From positions 1-63,812 of the forward strand of contig JAFULC010000052.1 in NCBI GenBank assembly GCA_017483305.1: DNA of 63,812 nucleotides, written 5' to 3'. The notes under the pieces are model-generated. The model ran no database searches. It saw only the letters and a program-made list of their open reading frames with translations, and had not been told where the DNA came from. The position numbers and the translations under genes were made by a program. How positions within the stretch are numbered: position 1 is the first letter of the stretch; every line of letters begins with the position of its first letter. Shown here in pieces: positions 1,441 to 55,124 of this stretch. Source of the DNA: Clostridia bacterium. Lineage in GTDB: Bacteria; Bacillota; Clostridia; Oscillospirales; CAG-272.

Positions 1441-1695
1441 AAAAAAGCTTTCGTCTCAAGAAATTGAGACGAAAGCATAGAAACCTCCGCGGTACCACTC
1501 AAATTGCGTCTAACGACGCCACTCTGACCAATAACGGCGGCTGACCGTTCCAACCTACTGTGAATTCGGAAGGACTGCTCCGAGGTGAGTAAGAAAGGGC
1601 TTGTCTGCCGCCTCGCACCACGGGAAACCCACGGCGGCTCTCTGTCAAGACAAAACGATTCTCTGTCCTCATCAACGCATTTAAAAACAACATTA
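1441..1695 (-). promoter_or_regulatory. T-box leader for leuS (leucine specifier CTC)
   Basis: A tRNA-sensing transcription attenuator on the minus strand. The T-box sequence TGGTACCGCGG is at 1487-1497. The specifier loop carries CTC (Leu) at 1587-1589, followed by ACCTCGGAG, which aligns base for base with the TTC-CCTTCGGAG of the phenylalanine T-box at 15438. An AGAGAG and GGTGCGA stem I signature lies upstream. The terminator is a 13-bp stem (1447-1459 with 1464-1476, loop of four) followed by a T-run. Uncharged tRNA-Leu should favour the antiterminator and leuS transcription. Confidence 0.93.
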
Positions 1696-6407: not shown

Positions 6408-6436
6408 TTGACAACTTCCGTTTTTGGTGTTATAAT
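6408..6436 (+). promoter_or_regulatory. sigma-A promoter of the small membrane protein transcript
   Basis: TTGACA (6408-6413) and TATAAT (6431-6436), spacer 17. Predicted transcription starts near 6443, giving a 5' UTR of about 200 nt that contains the structured leader. Confidence 0.9.
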
Positions 6437-6532
6437 AGCCTCACAAGAACAAAAATCCGACCAATTTCGAGTATTTTCATTCCATTTTAAGAAAAGCTCC
6501 ACCATATAAGATTTTTTGAAAGCGAGGCAACA

Positions 6533-6649
6533 GCGTGAAGGTTACTTTCATCTGAATATGAAATAAACTGTTTCACGCGCGAATTTTGCCGATGGCAAAA
6601 TTCATCAATTATTATTTGTGCCGCCGTTGGCGGCAGAACGGAGATTATT
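6533..6649 (+). ncRNA. structured 5' leader, copy A (before small membrane protein)
   Basis: Three helices in a row. Helix 1: GCGTGAAG 6533-6540 with TTTCACGC 6571-6578, outer span 46 nt, with an inner TTTCA/TGAAA pairing. Helix 2: GAATTTTGCC 6581-6590 with GGCAAAATTC 6594-6603. Helix 3: TGCCGCC 6619-6625 with GGCGGCA 6629-6635. Then comes ACGGAGATT and the ATG at 6650. The same layout precedes rnc (35338-35461, minus) and lon (44674-44824). I do not recognise the family. Confidence 0.75.
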
Positions 6650-6958
6650 ATGAACGCTTATTATCAGAATCCCAAGATCACAAGAGCAACAGATATACAT
6701 CCCTACCCCTCCACCTCGGCATTCGACAAGCTGATCTCCTTGATTTGCATGATCGTAGCCGCCCTCACAAGCAGCGTGGCGATCAAGGTTGAAAAGGCAG
6801 TGCTTTGCACGGTATGCTTCGTCGGATTCTTCGGCGTTATCGGCAGTATGGAAAGCGGCGCAATAGGAACCCTTGCAGGACTTTTCCTTTGCCTTGTATT
6901 CGCAGGTGTAGAGCTTCTTATCTTCAAGAGCCTTTTCGGCAAAAAAATCAACAAGTAA
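6650..6958 (+). CDS. small membrane protein of unknown function
   Basis: A 102-residue protein that I do not recognise. A hydrophilic, tyrosine- and proline-containing N-terminus of about 22 residues is followed by three likely membrane segments: roughly 28-45 (ISLICMIVAALTSSVAI), 50-66 and 70-92. It ends in the basic tail GKKINK. It has its own consensus promoter, a 200-nt leader with the three-helix element, and a CGGAGA ribosome site. The position opposite an S24 repressor hints at stress-regulated expression, but no function can be assigned. Confidence 0.7.
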   Translation: MNAYYQNPKITRATDIHPYPSTSAFDKLISLICMIVAALTSSVAIKVEKAVLCTVCFVGFFGVIGSMESGAIGTLAGLFLCLVFAGVELLIFKSLFGKKINK

Positions 6959-15339: not shown

Positions 15340-15608
15340 TAAATAAAACATAAGCCTTGATGAAGTCGGCGTGTTTTCAGGTCATATTTCAGAGAGTCCG
15401 TGGTCGGTGCGAGCGGATATATGCGAAAACAAGGCATTTCCCTTCGGAGCTTGCTCGGTGAATGATTATTCGATTAGCCGAGCACGGCAGACACCGTTAT
15501 CCGTCAACAAAGTGTTGGCTTTGATACTGCAAAAGTCAAAATGCGGGTGGTACCGCGGAAATTATGCTTTTCCGTCCCAATTCTCCTTCGAGAATTGGGA
15601 CTTTTTTT
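15340..15608 (+). promoter_or_regulatory. T-box leader for pheST (phenylalanine specifier TTC)
   Basis: A tRNA-Phe sensing attenuator. Stem I carries AGAGAG and GGTGCGA near 15390-15411. The specifier codon is TTC at 15438-15440, followed by CCTTCGGAG. The T-box bulge TGGTACCGCGG lies at 15548-15558. The terminator is a perfect 12-bp stem (15574-15585 with 15590-15601, loop CTTC) followed by TTTTTTT. Uncharged tRNA-Phe should switch on the downstream synthetase genes. Confidence 0.94.
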
Positions 15609-16866: not shown

Positions 16867-16884
16867 TAAAGGAGGTAACGAATA

Positions 16885-19284
16885 ATGAATCTTTCACTTA
16901 AATGGCTTCACGATTTTACAAATACAGACGGTATCTCCACAAAGGAATACTGCGACAGAATGACCGACACGGGCTCTAAGGTAGAGGGCTACGAGGTTCT
17001 CGGCGAGGATATCAGCAACGTGATTGTTGCAAAGGTTCTCAAAATGGAGCGCCACCCCGACTCCGACCACCTCTGGATCTGTCAGGTCGACATCGGAGAG
17101 ACGGTGACTCAGATCGTCACGGGCGAGCAGAACTTCCACGAGGGCGACATCGTCCCCGCGGCTATCCCCGTTGCGCATCTTCCGGGTGATGTTACCATCA
17201 AGGCAGGCAAGCTCCGCGGCGTTGAGTCGAACGGAATGCTCTGCTCTATCGCAGAATTGAATCTCACACTCCACGATATGCCCGAGGCGATCGAGGACGG
17301 CATCCTCATTCTCGGAAAGGACTTTGAGGACAAGGTCGGTATGGACATCAAGGAAGCGCTCCTGCTTGACGATACCGTCGTTGAGTTCGAGATAACCTCC
17401 AACCGCCCCGACTGTCTCTCTGTCATCGGTCTTGCTCGTGAGACTGCGATCAGCTTCGACAAGCCCCTGAATATCCCCACCCCCACCGTCAAGGAGCTTG
17501 GCGACGGAGATAAGATTGAAAATTATCTCTCGGTCAAGATAAGCGACCCCGACCTCTGCTACCGTTACGCCGCAAAGGTCGTCAAGAACGTAAAGATCGC
17601 ACCCTCGCCGCTCTGGCTCAGGATGAGACTCCGTGCGGCAGGTGTTCGTCCCATAAACAACATCGTCGACATAACCAACTACGTAATGCTCGAGTACGGT
17701 CAGCCCATGCACGCGTTTGACTACGCTATGCTCTCGGGCTCTGCTATCAACGTGCGCCGCGCTACCGACGGTGAGCTCTTCAAGTCACTCGACGACAAGG
17801 ATCACGTGCTCGACAGCACAATGCTCGCTATCTGCGACGAAAAGAAGCCCTGCGCTCTCGCGGGCGTTATGGGCGGCGCAAACAGTGAGATCAAGGATAG
17901 CACAACCACCGTCGTCTTCGAGTCGGCTTGCTTCTCGGGTCCCTCTGTGCGCGTGACCGCAAAGAAAAACGGCATGAGAACCGAATCAAGCGCCCGCTTC
18001 GAGAAGGGTCTCGACCCCGAAAACTGTATGGCAGGTCTGCTCCGCGCTTGTGAGATGGTTCAGCTTCTCGGCGCAGGCGACGTGGTCGACGGCACGATCG
18101 ACGTGTACCCCACTAAGCCCGAGCCTACGGTCCTCCCTCTCGACGTGGATAAGATCAACAAGTTCCTCGGAACCGACATCTCCTACGACTATATGAAGAG
18201 CGTTCTCGAGCGTCTTGAGTGCAAGGTAGAGGGCGATAAGATAACCGTTCCCTCCTTCCGCGCAGACCTCACCTGCATGAACGATATCGCAGAGGAAATA
18301 ATCCGTATTTACGGCTATAATAACATCAAGTCCACCTGCATCTATGCAGAGACCACCCAGGGCGGCAGAACCCCCAAGCAGCAGTTTGAGGTCGACACCG
18401 AGCACCTGCTCTACGGAATGGGCTTCGATCAGATACAGACCTTCTCCTTTATCAGCCCCAAGTACTACGATAAGATCAGAATGGATAGCGACAGTGCGCT
18501 CCGCAAGTCGATCGTGATCAGCAATCCTCTCGGCGAGGACACCAGCGTTATGCGTACCACCGCGCTCCCCTCTATGATGGAGGTAGTTGCAAGAAATATC
18601 AACTTCTCCAACGAGGACGTCCGTCTGTTCGAAATGGCGACCGTATATATTCCCAACGAGGAGTACAACGCACTTCCCGATGAAAACAAGGTTCTTACTC
18701 TCGCCGCATACGGCAAGGGAGAGGACTTCTACGCGCTCAAGGGCGTTATCGAAAACCTGCTCGAGTCCGCAGGCATCGAAAAGGCAAAGTTCGAGTCCTA
18801 CTCAAGCGATAAGGCATACCACCCCGGCAGATGCGCGAAAATTGTTGACAAAAACGGAAATTGCCTCGGCGTATTCGGTCAGATCCACCCCCTCACCGCA
18901 CAGAATTACGATATTAACATTCCCGTTTACGCCGCAGAGCTCTCGTTCGACAAGATCTTCGACGCGGCTGATATGACCATCGACTATAAGCCCCTGCCCA
19001 AGTTCCCCGCAGTTTCCCGCGACTTCTCCTTCGTTTGCGACGAGGAGGTCGAGGTCGGAACTATCGAGGAGGTCATGGCAAAGGCGGCAGGCAAGCTTCT
19101 TGAGGACATCAAGCTCTTTGACATCTTCCGCGGCGAAAAGCTCGGAGAGGGCAAGAAGAGCGTCGCGTTCCGCGTTATCCTCCGCGCTCCCGACCGCACG
19201 CTGACCGTTGAAGAGGCAGATAAGGTCTCGAACAAGATCATCAAGGATCTTTCCTTCAAGCTTGGCATTAATATTCGAGGTTGA
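16885..19284 (+). CDS. pheT: phenylalanyl-tRNA synthetase beta subunit
   Basis: The 799-residue partner of PheS. In order: an OB-fold tRNA-binding domain near residues 40-150 (KHPDSDHL-type sequence, here RHPDSDHLWICQV), the B3/B4 editing domain (GVRPINNIVDITNYV), the B5 domain, the class II-like core, and a C-terminal ferredoxin-like anticodon-binding domain (FPAVSRDFSFV). Its AAAGGAGG ribosome site is one of the strongest in the window. It is translated together with pheS under the T-box. Confidence 0.97.
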   Translation: MNLSLKWLHDFTNTDGISTKEYCDRMTDTGSKVEGYEVLGEDISNVIVAKVLKMERHPDSDHLWICQVDIGETVTQIVTGEQNFHEGDIVPAAIPVAHLPGDVTIKAGKLRGVESNGMLCSIAELNLTLHDMPEAIEDGILILGKDFEDKVGMDIKEALLLDDTVVEFEITSNRPDCLSVIGLARETAISFDKPLNIPTPTVKELGDGDKIENYLSVKISDPDLCYRYAAKVVKNVKIAPSPLWLRMRLRAAGVRPINNIVDITNYVMLEYGQPMHAFDYAMLSGSAINVRRATDGELFKSLDDKDHVLDSTMLAICDEKKPCALAGVMGGANSEIKDSTTTVVFESACFSGPSVRVTAKKNGMRTESSARFEKGLDPENCMAGLLRACEMVQLLGAGDVVDGTIDVYPTKPEPTVLPLDVDKINKFLGTDISYDYMKSVLERLECKVEGDKITVPSFRADLTCMNDIAEEIIRIYGYNNIKSTCIYAETTQGGRTPKQQFEVDTEHLLYGMGFDQIQTFSFISPKYYDKIRMDSDSALRKSIVISNPLGEDTSVMRTTALPSMMEVVARNINFSNEDVRLFEMATVYIPNEEYNALPDENKVLTLAAYGKGEDFYALKGVIENLLESAGIEKAKFESYSSDKAYHPGRCAKIVDKNGNCLGVFGQIHPLTAQNYDINIPVYAAELSFDKIFDAADMTIDYKPLPKFPAVSRDFSFVCDEEVEVGTIEEVMAKAAGKLLEDIKLFDIFRGEKLGEGKKSVAFRVILRAPDRTLTVEEADKVSNKIIKDLSFKLGINIRG

Positions 19285-19291
19285 TAACGAT

Positions 19292-19498
19292 ATGGCAGAA
19301 AAATCAAGAATAGAAAAGCTGAACGAATACGCGGCAAGAGTCAAGGCGGGTGAGGTGCTCACCCCCGAGGAGATCGCCGACCGTGACCGTCTCCGTCAGG
19401 AGTTTTTGGCAGCATTCCGCAAGAATTTTCGAGCCCAGCTCGACAACACCGTGGTTCAGTATCCCGACGGAACTAAGAAGTCACTGAAAAAGGATTAA
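19292..19498 (+). CDS. DUF896 domain protein (YnzC family)
   Basis: A 68-residue, highly charged protein of the YnzC/DUF896 family, seen in the helical hairpin IEKLNEYAARVKAGE-LTPEEIADRDRLRQEFL and the motif FRAQLDNTVV. B. subtilis YnzC is a small helical protein from an SOS-linked operon; its role is unknown. It follows pheT by seven bases and is likely cotranscribed. Confidence 0.85.
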   Translation: MAEKSRIEKLNEYAARVKAGEVLTPEEIADRDRLRQEFLAAFRKNFRAQLDNTVVQYPDGTKKSLKKD

Positions 19499-34610: not shown

Positions 34611-35337
34611 TGCCGTTCGGGATAACGCTGAAGAGCTTTAACGCCTCCATAGCCGCGTTCTGCTCTGCCTCGCGCTTGCTTCTGCCCTCTCCGCGACCGA
34701 TCACGTTCGAATTGAGTCTCGCTTCAACGCGGAAGGTCTTCATGTGGTCGGGGCCGCTCTGACCGACGACGATATACTCGAGGAAATCGCCCTCTGCCTG
34801 CTGAACGAACTGCTGAAGCAGGCTCTTGGGGTCTCCTCCAAAGCCCTTGCTTTTACCGATGCTTTCGATCTCAACGCTGATGAACGGAAGCAGAAATTCT
34901 CTGACGGTCTCCATTCCACGCTCGCCCGCGTCCATATATATCGCCGCAAGCAGAGCCTCGAACGCATCTGCAAGTATGCTCTTGCGGCTTCTTCCGTTGT
35001 TTTTTTCTTCTCCTATTCCGAGAAGCAGATATTTTCCAAGCTCTATCTTCTCCGAATATCCTGCAAGTGCTCTTTCGCAGACCACCTCGGCTCTCATTCT
35101 GGTCAGCTCGCCCTCGGGGCAATCCTCAAACTTTGCGAACAGGTAATTGCTCGTTATAAGTGAGAGCACGCTATCGCCGAGGAATTCAAGTCTCTCGTTG
35201 CAATGCAGGTGATGATTTTTCAAGCCCGACTCGTTGGAATACGACGAGTGGGTCAGTGCGCGCTCGAGCAGGCTTCGGTTTTTAAATTTGTAGCCTATCC
35301 TCGCTTCGAGGTGGGCGCGATCGGGACGGTCGTTCAT
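34600..35337 (-). CDS. rnc: ribonuclease III
   Basis: A 245-residue double-strand-specific endoribonuclease that processes rRNA and regulates mRNAs. The signature NERLEFLGDSVLSLI and the second metal site in FEALLAAIYMDAG belong to the catalytic domain. The dsRNA-binding domain follows from about residue 165 (DPKSLLQQFVQ to GEGRSKREAEQNAAMEAL). The start at 35337 follows GGAGATTACG, the ribosome site at the end of leader copy C; an in-frame ATG four codons earlier would cover that site. Confidence 0.96.
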   Translation of the reverse strand: MNDRPDRAHLEARIGYKFKNRSLLERALTHSSYSNESGLKNHHLHCNERLEFLGDSVLSLITSNYLFAKFEDCPEGELTRMRAEVVCERALAGYSEKIELGKYLLLGIGEEKNNGRSRKSILADAFEALLAAIYMDAGERGMETVREFLLPFISVEIESIGKSKGFGGDPKSLLQQFVQQAEGDFLEYIVVGQSGPDHMKTFRVEARLNSNVIGRGEGRSKREAEQNAAMEALKLFSVIPNGNED

Positions 35338-35461
35338 CGTAATCTCCATTCCGCCGCTTACGGCGACATAACATAAATAGTAATCTATGAATTCTGCCGT
35401 AAAGGCAAAATCCTCGCGTGAAACTGTTTATTTCTCGTTCAGAAGGGAAAAGATTTCACGC
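35338..35461 (-). ncRNA. structured 5' leader, copy C (before rnc)
   Basis: Minus-strand copy. Helix 1 pairs GCGTGAAA (35461-35454) with TTTCACGC (35423-35416), outer span 46 nt as in the other copies. Helix 2 is GGATTTTGCC with GGCAGAATTC; the A-to-G change facing T keeps pairing. Helix 3 is TCGCC-GTAA-GCGGCGG, then AATGGAGATTACG and the rnc start. It fills most of the gap between plsX and rnc. Confidence 0.75.
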
Positions 35462-35503
35462 TATTCCTGAATTTTTCTTGCTTTTTTGGTTAAAATAAAG
35501 CGT

Positions 35504-44584: not shown

Positions 44585-44673
44585 AAGGGATATAATGAGA
44601 TAATTATACCATTGCCGCTGTCTTTTGCTCACAAGCGAGGATTTCGGCAGTTAAAAAATATATACGAGGTCTA

Positions 44674-44824
44674 GCGTGAAAGTTGCTTCCATCTAACAGT
44701 GAACTAATCTTTTTCACGCAGGAATTTTGCCTCGCCGGCAAAATTCATCGATTACTATTTGTGCCGCCACTGGGTTACCCGAAGAACTTTTGGGGTTCCC
44801 GTACGCGGCGGAATGGAGATTAAA
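44674..44824 (+). ncRNA. structured 5' leader, copy B (before lon)
   Basis: Helix 1: GCGTGAAA 44674-44681 with TTTCACGC 44712-44719, again 46 nt across. Helix 2: GAATTTTGCC 44722-44731 with GGCAAAATTC 44737-44746. Helix 3 begins TGCCGCC and closes with GCGGCGG but carries about 34 extra bases folding into an added hairpin (CCCGAA-GAAC-TTTTGGG). AATGGAGATT and the lon ATG follow. Confidence 0.75.
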
Positions 44825-47269
44825 ATGTCACAATATACAGTCAAAGCACAAAATCTTTCTCTTCCCCTGGTCGCACTGACCTCTACGGTCGCGTTCCCGG
44901 GAGAGATCATAAATCTTGAGGTCAGTGATAACAGCTTTGATTCCTGCGAGGCGCTCCGCGAGGCCTTCGAGGGATCGAAATACGCGCTGGCTATCCCGAT
45001 CGTGTCCGAGGAGGGCGAGGAGCCCAGACTTTTTGAGGTCGGCACGGTAATCAAGATCAAGCAGCTCATAAACGCAGGCGAAAAGACCCTGCGCTGTATC
45101 GCCGAGGGAATGTCGCGCGCGACCCTCACCTCATACCGTCGCACCGGCAGCTTCAACACCGCAGAGGTCATCTGCAAAACCATAGCTCTGCCCGACGGCC
45201 CCGGCATCAAGAACCAGGCGTATATGCGCCGTCTTACCGACGCGGCATCCAAGATCGCAAAGCTGCTCCCTCCCCCTGCGGAGAACATTCTTCCCTCCTT
45301 CAAGGGAATCAAAAACCCCGCCCTTTTAGCCGACGTTATCGCATCCAATCTTTTTATTAAGTTTGAGGATAAGCTCGAGGTGCTCGGCGTATTCGAGCCC
45401 TACCGCCGTATCGAGACCGTTCTCGCCATCGCAGAGGACGAGCTTGACGTGCTTTTGCTTGAGTCCGAGCTTCATAAGAAAACTCGCGAGAGGATAAATC
45501 GCGGTCAGCGCGAATACTATCTGCGCGAGGAGATGAAGTCGATCCAGGAGGAGCTTGGCGACGGAGCATCCGACACGGAGGAATATCACAATAAAATAAT
45601 GTCCGCGGGTCTGCCCGAGGAGGTTCAGAAAAAGCTTCTTAAGGAGAACGACAGGCTGGCTCGCTCGCCCTTTGGCTCTGCCGAGGCGACGGTCATTTCC
45701 AACTATCTCGACGTATGTCTTGAACTCCCCTGGAAAAAGGTTACCAAGGACAGAACCGACGTCAAGGCGGCAAGAAAAATACTCGACGCCGACCACGAGG
45801 GTCTTGAGGACGTCAAGGAACGACTCCTGGAATACCTTGCGGTCAAGCAGCTCAATCCCGAGCTCAAGGGTCAGATAATCTGTCTTTACGGCCCTCCCGG
45901 AGTCGGAAAGACCTCTATCGCGTCCTCGCTGGCAAGGGCTATGAAGCGTGAGTACGTGCGCGTTTCTCTCGGAGGAGTACGCGACGAAGCCGACATTCGC
46001 GGTCACAGGAAGACCTACGTTGGAGCTATGCCCGGACGTATCATATCCGCTCTCTCGCAGGTCGGAGTCAGAAATCCTCTGATCTTGCTTGACGAGATAG
46101 ATAAAATGGCAAACGACGGCAGGGGCGACCCTGCGAGCGCGATGCTCGAGGTGCTCGATCCCGAGCAAAACAAGTTCTTCAGAGATCATTTCGTGGAGCT
46201 TCCCTTCGATCTCTCGGACTGCATATTCATCGCGACCGCCAACACTCTTGACACCGTGCCGCGCCCGCTTATCGACCGTATGGAGATAATCGAGCTGCAC
46301 ACCTACACCAAGAGCCAGAAGATCGGCATTGCAAAAAATCACCTGATCCCCAAGCAGATAAAGCGTCACGGTCTGACCAAGCGCACGCTCAAGATAACCG
46401 ATGCGGCACTCTCCGATATCATCGATTGCTACACTCGCGAGTCGGGTGTACGTAATCTCGAGCGCGAGCTTGCATCGGTCTGCAGAAAGGCGGCAAAGCT
46501 TATCGTTGAGGGCGGAGTATCGAGAGTCGTCGTCGACTCTGACGATCTCAAGTCCTTCCTTGGACCGAAGAAGATAATTCCCGAGACCATCAGCGCGCTC
46601 GACGAGGTCGGCGTGGTCAACGGAATGGCATACACACAGTCGGGCGGCGATCTGCTTAAGGTCGAGGCTGCGGTCATGGACGGCAGCGGCAAGCTTGAGC
46701 TTACGGGCTCACTTGGCGACGTTATGAAGGAATCGGCTCACGCCGCGATCACATATACACGTCAGATAGCTGAAAAATACGGAATTTCCCCTGATTTCTA
46801 CTCCAAAAAGGATATACATATCCACTTCCCCGAGGGTGCGGTCCCCAAGGACGGTCCCTCGGCAGGTATCACCACGCTCACCGCTCTTGTCAGTGCGCTT
46901 TCGGGCATTCCCGTGCGCCGCGACATCTCGATGACGGGCGAGATCACGATCCGCGGAAACGTGCTTGCGATAGGCGGTCTTCGTGAGAAGACTATGGCGG
47001 CTTACAGCGCGGGCGTTCGCACGATAATCATTCCTGCGGATAATCTTAAGGATCTTGGGGAGCTTGATCCTCTCGTGCGCGAAAACGTTACCTTTATTCC
47101 CTGTCGCAGAGCCTGCGAGGTCCTCGCAAACGCATTGGTCGACGTTGGCGTTGACTGCCAGAAGGTCGACAAGACCGTGACCGAGGAGGTCTCAAAGATC
47201 GTTCTCGCACCGACAGAGGTTACCGTGCCCAAGACCCCCTCGCGCAAGCGTGCAAGCTCGACCAAGTAA
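44825..47269 (+). CDS. lon: ATP-dependent protease Lon
   Basis: An 814-residue cytoplasmic AAA+ protease that degrades damaged and regulatory proteins. Domains: N-terminal LON domain (about 1-200), AAA module with Walker A GPPGVGKT near residue 356 and Walker B LLDEIDK, and the S16 protease domain with catalytic Ser in [10 protein letters not shown] (near 679) and Lys in LREKTMAA (near 722). The start at 44825 follows TGGAGATT; an in-frame ATG 22 codons earlier lies inside the structured leader and would encode an unrelated extension. Confidence 0.97.
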
Positions 47270-54143: not shown

Positions 54144-54929
54144 ATGGAATACACAACAAAAATACTGATCGCTGACGAAAATGCGTCACAACGCGCGCTC
54201 TTAAAGGACTGTTTTTTGCACGCAGGCTGCCGATATATAGAGGAGGCTGTCAACGGAGAGGATGCCTTGACGAAGATAGGGCGGATCCATCCCGATCTTG
54301 TCGTGATCGACATCTGGATGTCAAAGGTCGACGGGCTCAGCGTGGTCCGCAGCGCGAAGGCGCTTTCCTACGGACAAGACAAGCCGCCCGTTATTATCAT
54401 GACCTCGCCGATCTCGAATCAAAATATTTTCGTGCAGGCGCTTCAGTCGGGCGCGGAGCTGTGTCTGATCAAGCCGATCAATCAGTCAAATCTCATTGAA
54501 TACGCCGAGAATATGCTCAAAAATCGCAATTCAAAGGGCGAGGGCGCGGACAGTCAGTCCCACGACGACAGCACGCCCGATATTGAAGCACAGGTCACGC
54601 GCATTATTCATCAGATCGGTGTGCCCGCGCACATCAAGGGCTATCAGTATCTTCGCACGGCTATTCTGCTGACGGTCAAGGACTCCGATATTATCAACTC
54701 GGTAACGAAGGTTCTCTACCCTTCCGTCGCAAAGAAATACCAGACTACCACCTCTCGTGTCGAGCGCGCCATCAGACACGCCATCGAGGTCGCGTGGGAC
54801 AGAGGTGACGTGGATACGTTGAATAGTTATTTTGGGTATACTATTCAGAACAACCGCGGAAAGCCCACGAATAGCGAATTTATTGCGATGATTGCGGATA
54901 ATCTCAGACTTAAATACAAATTGTATTAA
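54144..54929 (+). CDS. spo0A: sporulation master regulator Spo0A
   Basis: A 261-residue response regulator that starts sporulation. The receiver domain has the acidic pocket in LIADEN and the phosphoacceptor Asp in LVVIDIWM, with Lys in CLIKPIN. The C-terminal Spo0A DNA-binding domain is nearly canonical: [36 protein letters not shown] and [18 protein letters not shown]. The ribosome site is CGGAGGA. A diverged copy of the last codons lies 180 bases downstream. Confidence 0.98.
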
Positions 54930-54934
54930 AAAAG

Positions 54935-55040: not shown

Positions 55041-55109
55041 ATGACGACCAATACCGAGTTTATTGCGATGATTGCGGATAATCTGAGGCTGAAGTATAAG
55101 TTGTACTGA
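55041..55109 (+). pseudogene. remnant of a second spo0A 3' end
   Basis: The 23 codons ending at TGA 55107-55109 repeat the last codons of spo0A ([19 protein letters not shown] against [19 protein letters not shown]). A run of 26 bases is identical. Eight of the differing codons are synonymous third-position changes (for example CTC/CTG, AAA/AAG), and the stop is TGA instead of TAA. This is the tail of a diverged spo0A allele, not a fresh local duplication. Confidence 0.85.
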
Positions 55110-55124
55110 TAAAATCAATAGTTA

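Follow-up and report, generated by a model that had tools for sequence, protein, structure and literature searches.

Why do three unrelated genes on one clostridial contig carry the same structured leader directly before their start codons? An earlier note on this DNA, made from the letters alone, had described a three-helix layout right before the starts at 6650, 35337 (minus strand) and 44825, and had taken it for a shared cis-regulatory RNA (a riboswitch, a protein-binding leader or a thermosensor) of no described class. In the window, i.e., the whole stretch of 63,812 nt that was analyzed, the three leaders were found to be homologous: they align end to end with 74% mean column identity over 167 columns and have a common layout, consisting of an 8-bp outer helix 1, a 10-bp helix 2, a linker, a GC-rich helix 3, a Shine-Dalgarno (SD) sequence and an immediate start codon. 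Judged from comparative sequence data, they are very probably copies of a small non-autonomous directional mobile repeat of Clostridia, which targets translation start sites. The features of the three sites are as follows.

6408-6436, plus strand: promoter-like site TTGACA-17-TATAAT upstream of copy 1, a 12/12 consensus match only
6522-6527, plus strand: host SD-like run gcgagg immediately 5′ of copy 1, read from the sequence
6531-6646, plus strand: element copy 1 (YAGCGTG...GGAGATT), preceding the gene for a small membrane protein; NNN at 6647-6649, then ATG at 6650
6533-6578, plus strand: helix 1 of copy 1, 46 nt, with variable inner sequence
6581-6603, plus strand: helix 2 of copy 1, GAATTTTGCC/GGCAAAATTC; a branched domain in other genera
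6604-6619, plus strand: conserved linker of copy 1, ATnnATTAnTATTTGT
6620-6634, plus strand: helix 3 of copy 1, GCCGCC/GGCGGC
6640-6643, plus strand: element-borne SD GGAG of copy 1, with ATG 6 nt downstream
35341-35463, minus strand: element copy 2 before rnc; start codon at 35337; 112 bits; RNase III domains in the gene product
44666-44669, plus strand: host SD gagg of lon, retained 5′ of copy 3; in G104 and G149 it serves lon directly
44672-44821, plus strand: element copy 3 before lon; ATG at 44825; 130.4 bits; Lon domains in the gene product

Details of the layout given in the earlier note were reproduced. Helix 1 (GCGTGAA...TTCACGC) is 46 nt long and variable inside in all three copies, helix 2 has loops of 3, 5 and 5 nt, the rnc copy shows the A-to-G change opposite T, the conserved linker reads ATnnATTAnTATTT, and the ribosome site lies ~5 nt after helix 3, with the start codon at once thereafter. 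That description lacked 32 extra nt within the helix-3 loop of the lon copy. An extra hairpin of ~30-45 nt was seen as a nested module in this loop (44768-44812 region) as well as in L013, L014, L018 and L029. The helix-1 loop (e.g., 6540-6554), being rich in pyrimidines, might pair with the SD region of the element; this was seen in copies of the genus and not in the other groups examined. A Pfam domain search identified the products downstream of copies 2 and 3 as RNase III and Lon and gave no match for the 102-aa protein after copy 1; no common function is apparent among the genes. Since copy 1 lies ~95 nt 3′ of the promoter-like site in the own genome (G000), it is probably transcribed as a leader.

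All three copies fold better than dinucleotide shuffles (z of -4.65, -4.66 and -4.37), with none of 200 shuffles as good. In the minimum-energy fold of the rnc copy, the arms of helix 2 and helix 3 pair with each other instead of forming two hairpins. A search of Rfam with the whole window and 17 related loci gave no match over the element at the gathering threshold, in agreement with the view that it belongs to no known class; the best scores, 19.7 and 18.6 bits, were weak compared to the required 48.7 and 60. The only gathering-level matches in the window were two T-box leaders, at 15348-15582 (plus strand, upstream of the pheT region) and 1462-1684 (minus strand), both away from the three copies.

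The earlier note had suggested a covariance-model search of related genomes, and this search revealed many further copies before other genes. A model, R1, was built from 25 copies; copy 1 scored 135.9 bits with it, being among its own training sequences. In the own genome (2.0 Mb), 47 copies were detected at E<=1e-3 and 52 below E 0.01; 50 (35 + 15) were read in context, and 30 of the 82 matches, weaker than E 0.01, were left out. A single-copy BLAST query yielded 60 alignments in the same genome, some of them reverse-strand matches of the palindromic helix 2. Across 12 genomes of the genus, copy counts were 47, 46, 46, 40, 14, 14, 10, 10, 4, 2, 0 and 0. We tabulated 99 genus copies (35 in G000, 23 in G104, 21 in G150 and 20 in G149), 89 of which have ATG at the end and four GTG; in three of these four, the GTG opens the following tandem unit, and in the fourth it starts a gene. 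The other six are the tandem unit L028, the degenerate L340 and four copies whose ATG overlaps the match end, namely L330 and three at a single thyX-like gene (L049, L155 and L325). Among the fifteen weaker own-genome matches, 13 end at ATG, and L416 and L419 have ATG across or inside the match end. L425 is a right-end-only copy, and the frame that follows it runs for 15 codons to an in-frame stop.

Orientation was sense in every copy read. Besides lon and rnc, which were identified by domain search, copies precede genes that were recognized by reading of their N-termini by eye as groEL, recA, deoB, cysS, thyX, yidC, rplI and serC, and as genes for a copper-type ATPase and for regulators resembling PadR and Fur. 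Copies in tandem, with a common junction, were present in G000, G104, G150 and G149, at cysS and at a gene whose product begins MKYINQ, and their number varies between species.

Orthologous sites were compared between species. At nine of them, one species has the element and another lacks it: those of Cu-ATPase, Gfo/Idh, creatininase, SerC, a sigma-like gene, rplI, DUF896, lon and pheT. The listing contained 36 empty rows, from which 25 tandem-copy differences (cysS and one other gene) were dropped; the remaining 11 correspond to seven independent sites, to which lon and pheT were added. The species compared are sisters and not parents, and each of the nine differences may be a gain or a loss. 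G146 was too divergent and was kept outside the alignment of DNA flanks. At lon, the element is present in two of 12 congeners (G000 and G150) and a plain leader in ten, among them G104 and G149 (95% protein identity). The window itself contains two of the empty sites.

16871-16887, plus strand: empty site of pheT, native GGAGGTAACGAATAATG, ATG at 16885; filled in G147 by an element of ~90 nt without helix 3
19277-19294, plus strand: empty site of the DUF896 gene, native GAGGTTGATAACGATATG, ATG at 19292; filled in G149, with flanks 99.7% and 98.3% identical

Thus, dispersed homologous copies show presence/absence polymorphism at orthologous sites, as for a non-autonomous mobile repeat. The copy number of 0 to 47, the empty sister orthologs and the tandem stacking are together the behavior of such a repeat.

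Other sites are filled in sister species as well, amounting to 105 copy-by-genome pairs. Copies can therefore be old; many appear to predate the species and may be kept for a use. Some copies of the mobile repeat, such as those at the shared sites read as groEL, recA, cysS, deoB and thyX, might now tune translation. This domestication would extend the mobile-repeat explanation and its probability overlaps with that of the latter; we regard it as possible and somewhat unlikely. Many filled sites are common to G000, G104, G150 and G149, and stable structures adjoin the SD; however, common descent of close species also predicts shared sites.

Regardless of such later use, the mobile repeat has a characteristic position relative to the translation start. 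The order at filled sites is host SD, ~2 nt, the element (YAGCGTGAA...GGAATGGAGATT), 3 nt and start codon. Because R1 contains final ATG columns and its matches are biased to end at ATG, an ATG-free right-end pattern (GCCGCC-N2..14-GGCGGCGGAATGGAGATT, 26-38 nt, with no start codon within) was used as an unbiased test of position, scanning one genome per species and viral contigs. Of the 123 matches listed, 121 had an ATG no more than 14 nt away, which in 111 stood exactly at +3, and the other two had GTG or TTG there. Judging by this pattern, the right junction is at a fixed distance from the start codon. On the left side, 71 of the 79 tabulated genus copies examined have a left end, and in 68 of these an SD-like word (3-6 letters of AGGAGG, sought leniently) was found within 16 nt 5′ of the element GTG, the three others lacking an SD. 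The host SD, in the GGAG frame, lies 6 nt before this GTG in 47 of 68 scorable genus copies.

The SD carried by the element is rigidly placed. Of the 79 genus copies examined, 68 could be scored, and in 59 of these its GGAG precedes the start by 6 nt; in the collection, it stands 6 nt before ATG in 111 of the 123 matches listed. Among 406 ORFs of G104, 133 native genes have GGAG at a distance of 3-12 nt from the start, with a broad spread and 21 of the 133 at 6 nt, and native spacer length was equal in 77 of 86 ortholog comparisons. The nine empty alleles have spacings of 6, 10, 7, 6, 7, 8, 12, 8 and 10 nt (10 in pheT), the value for Cu-ATPase being uncertain with its weak native SD (AGG only), whereas the filled alleles have 6 nt in eight and 7 in pheT. 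The empty-allele spacer exceeds 6 nt in seven of the nine pairs. The 3 nt before ATG are identical in filled and empty alleles at five of nine sites (Gfo/Idh, creatininase, SerC, sigma-like and rplI); two of three letters are alike in Cu-ATPase and lon, and there is no agreement in DUF896 and pheT. Part of the host spacer seems to have been lost at seven of the nine sites, as we infer from empty alleles that are of sister species and not parental. No terminal inverted repeats were seen in the alignment, the left YAGCGTGAA and the right GGAATGGAGATT not being inverted copies, and no target-site duplication was recognized in the nine filled/empty pairs. The SerC pair has GGAGG on both sides, one of which could be the element's own GGAG.

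These observations are consistent with a simple scheme. The element, ~85-170 nt long and sometimes shorter, would insert after the host SD, ~3 nt before the start codon and in the sense direction, and would supply a replacement SD, so that the gene remains translatable. This replacement could explain why copies persist even at likely essential genes. Bacterial mobile repeats are usually tolerated through intergenic landing; here, the repeat occupies the short stretch of a gene where changes matter most, and a substitute ribosome-binding site is apparently what lets it survive. A more specific and rather tentative proposal, under which the element would represent a new class, is double anchoring: one junction would lie ~2 nt past the host SD and the other 3 nt ahead of the start codon, irrespective of native spacing, with the spacer removed and the new SD placed at 6 nt; target recognition would then read both SD and start codon, possibly at the level of RNA or of the initiation complex. 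If so, there would be either a recombination system that recognizes translation starts or strong selection fixing the geometry. Selection for spacing could contribute to the 6-nt geometry, although native genes show no such strictness.

The repeat is not restricted to the genus. In a draw of genomes from the family, a match was present in 39 of 146 genomes and 27 of 71 genera. The 29 family loci (L056-L084) have one orientation and 28 end at ATG, while L072 is a tandem unit. In the class draw, exact right ends occurred in six of 291 genomes, the own genome included, and a control pattern in none. The scan of one genome per species with the right-end pattern yielded at least 120 stretches, with two further loci in viral contigs. 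Among the 80 of the 120 stretches whose record titles were listed, those naming a family were mostly from Lachnospiraceae or Oscillospiraceae, and others were given just as Clostridia, Eubacteriales or Firmicutes. Isolates among the matches listed include Anaerostipes butyraticus JCM 17466, Petralouisia muris and [Clostridium] citroniae WAL-17108. Eight genomes or MAGs with the right end contain 1-4 exact right ends apiece.

The core form consists of a left hairpin, a linker, a right hairpin and the SD. Copies without the 5′ part were found (L012, L022, L023 and L030), and in L207, L217 and L223 the right hairpin and SD alone (32 nt) precede the start codon, a form that is either minimal or truncated. 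In the genus of the window, helix 2 is a simple hairpin; it is missing in L075 and in short Lachnospiraceae forms. A third type of body (AACGTGAAAAATAAGC..., ...CTTGCTTCTTTT) was observed ahead of the same right end in L203, L273, L308, L310, L228 and L274. In the family copies L058, L059, L065, L067, L068, L070, L071, L076 and L084, a hairpin near AAAATGGG-NCCCAA-CCCATTTT recurs inside helix 2. Since this hairpin recurs over several genera while neighboring helices covary, it is a possible candidate for a protein-binding site.

Covariation, whose analysis the earlier note had also suggested, was strong across genera. From one of 18 family copies of different genera, a structure of 36 pairs was drawn by hand, comprising helices 1 and 3 and a branched helix 2 that bears two hairpins. 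In these copies 83.6% of cells pair, compared to 71.9 +/- 0.9 in shuffles, and 72 cells are double-changed, compared to 22.2 +/- 4.1. The covariation score is 0.287 versus 0.113 +/- 0.012 in shuffles and at most 0.129 in slid versions; the structure was drawn on one copy, and part of the excess over slid versions is therefore expected, which does not account for the double changes relative to shuffles. None of 500 shuffles reached the pairing, double-change or covariation values. RNAalifold recovered 9 pairs only from the same alignment, and the genus copies alone showed modest covariation (5 double-changed pairs versus 1.9). For helix 3 alone (MAFFT alignment of 34 right ends), 68 of 500 shuffles reached the paired percentage, and GCC repeats permit a second register (0.115 with a +3 slide versus 0.096). 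A stem search found stems in all 27 family copies; shuffled ends give 5-pair stems (G-T allowed) in 68%, and the stem count is therefore no proof of helix 3. The strong covariation of the inner helices points to structural selection that extends past the ends, for which a purely parasitic element would have no need. The helices probably either serve recognition by a mobilizing enzyme or keep the new SD usable.

Which enzyme could move the repeat? A directional recombinase or a hairpin-recognizing (HUH-like) transposase, acting in trans or since lost, would fit the ends best, although neither explains the apparent trimming of the host spacer. No match to Y1_Tnp (PF01797), IS110 transposase (PF01548) or RVT_1 (PF00078) was detected at E<=0.001 in G000, G104 and G150; in G149 (74% complete), the only Y1_Tnp and IS110 matches were below the curated cut-off and RVT_1 gave none. 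The mobilizing enzyme might belong to another family, act from another element or have been lost.

Several known systems share part of these properties. MITEs of DDE transposases are short, non-autonomous and present in high copy number, as is this element; it differs from them in the lack of terminal inverted repeats and of a clear target duplication and in its strict orientation. IS200/IS605-type elements transpose as single strands by HUH enzymes, have subterminal hairpins and insert directionally by a short target without clear duplication. Similarly, the element described here has subterminal hairpins and directional insertion 3′ of a short fixed target with no clear duplication, but start-codon anchoring and the apparent spacer trimming would be unexpected for that type, and no TnpA was found in G000, G104 and G150. 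IS110/IS1111 elements (bridge or seek RNA) resemble it in being directional and target-specific and in having a structured non-coding RNA; however, the element of the window has no recombinase, and IS110 is instead nested in the repeat. REP/BIME repeats with RAYT (Y1 HUH) are likewise short structured extragenic repeats of tens of copies and, according to two reports (PMC1525189, PMC11208160), targets of insertion sequences, IS110 types among them. Compared to them, this element has two unlike terminal hairpins, one orientation, a start-codon site and its own SD, and a RAYT-type Y1 transposase had no match in the three high-copy genomes (G000, G104 and G150). No description of such an element was found in the open-access literature, which does not by itself establish its absence from print.

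In several Lachnospiraceae loci, the left-hairpin loop holds an insertion with an IS110 transposase on the opposite strand; a frame or fragment was seen by eye in six of seven loci. The repeat's left end is visible in three of the seven, and three others have <800 nt upstream. L316 is the sole IS110 locus with domain confirmation (PF01548 and PF02371). In L316, L317, L234, L309, L277 and L292 (Lachnospiraceae and viral contigs), IS110 frames or fragments are antisense and lie beside or inside the loop. A different insert of ~200-230 nt occupies the same loop in L200, L222, L293 and L303 (Lachnospiraceae), and Rfam gave no match on this insert of L222 and L303. These loci raise the possibility that the repeat is a non-autonomous passenger of IS110-type (bridge-RNA-guided) elements, with the Lachnospiraceae IS110 copies as the autonomous form with the same ends. 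The IS110 frame does lie between the left and right ends of the repeat, antisense to the gene, and insertion is directional without clear duplication. However, IS110 sits in the helix-1 loop, short repeats without IS110 exist (L213, L225 and L286), the same loop also accepts the other insert, and no IS110 was found in G000, G104 and G150; we therefore consider the passenger relationship improbable. Nesting in a REP-like repeat explains the arrangement better: according to PMC1525189 and PMC11208160, insertion sequences, including those of the IS110 family, target REP repeats, and the repeat described here therefore probably serves as such a target. It would be one more repeat that IS110 elements appear to use in this way.

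A second possibility, as improbable as the passenger, is that the element moves at the RNA level, resembling an intron or a retro-element that enters the mRNA or spreads by target-primed copying. The fixed right junction with a more variable left junction and spacer, the copies without the 5′ part (L012, L022, L023 and L030) and the RNA-like covariation are compatible with this idea. On the other hand, selection to retain the SD also removes 5′ parts preferentially, and the site of L023 is full length in G149 (L331), so that its truncation may be decay. In addition, no reverse transcriptase was found in G000, G104, G149 and G150, and no group I/II intron match in Rfam in the window and the 17 loci scanned.

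The mobile repeat must also be weighed against the proposal with which this analysis started, a cis-regulatory leader (riboswitch, protein-binding leader or thermosensor) of a regulon. The claim of a real structured leader was borne out; that of a shared cis-regulatory RNA was not. Sense copies right before start codons with the SD within the motif, a strongly covarying structure, the presence of the element at lon, rnc and genes read as groEL and recA in the own genome, and the potential pairing of the helix-1 loop with the SD in genus copies are all features that a regulatory leader would have. However, the preceded genes look functionally unrelated, copy number ranges from 0 to 47 in one genus with tandem copies, orthologs in sister species have a plain leader only at nine sites (other sites being shared), and helix 2 and the loops differ or are absent in other groups. 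T-box and other Rfam leaders are also structured 5′ leaders before a start codon, but this element has no Rfam match, no gene-set specificity and a polymorphic presence. Given the unrelated genes, patchy presence and empty sites, a riboswitch or regulon was rejected as the main explanation, and we consider a cis-regulatory leader of a regulon quite unlikely, slightly more so than the two preceding possibilities.

An effect of the mobile repeat on translation of the downstream gene is nevertheless likely, and regulation would be compatible with it; the effect on expression may be mild or nil. The mobile-repeat explanation would account for odd 5′ leaders in gut Clostridia, which could be mistaken for riboswitches; in these bacteria, both the annotation of leaders and the calling of start codons would be affected.

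Ribosomes at the old SD could initiate at the element GTG and produce a short peptide, and nothing points to selection on it; a leader peptide or uORF that couples or attenuates translation, which would be in keeping with the host SD 6 nt before GTG in 47 of 68 scored copies and with stops within 12 codons in 80 of 90 frames, is very unlikely and was rejected for absence of a coding signal, given that in 87 of 90 cases another frame also ends within 12 codons, that the three codon positions are equally variable, that the Lachnospiraceae short forms L213, L225 and L286 run on without a stop (by eye), and that the two groEL copies have GCG in place of GTG, the one in G000 with a compensating change.

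Apart from the mobile repeat, the window contains a 67-nt direct repeat with 82% identity (54867-54933 and 55047-55113), the two units of which are 180 nt apart.
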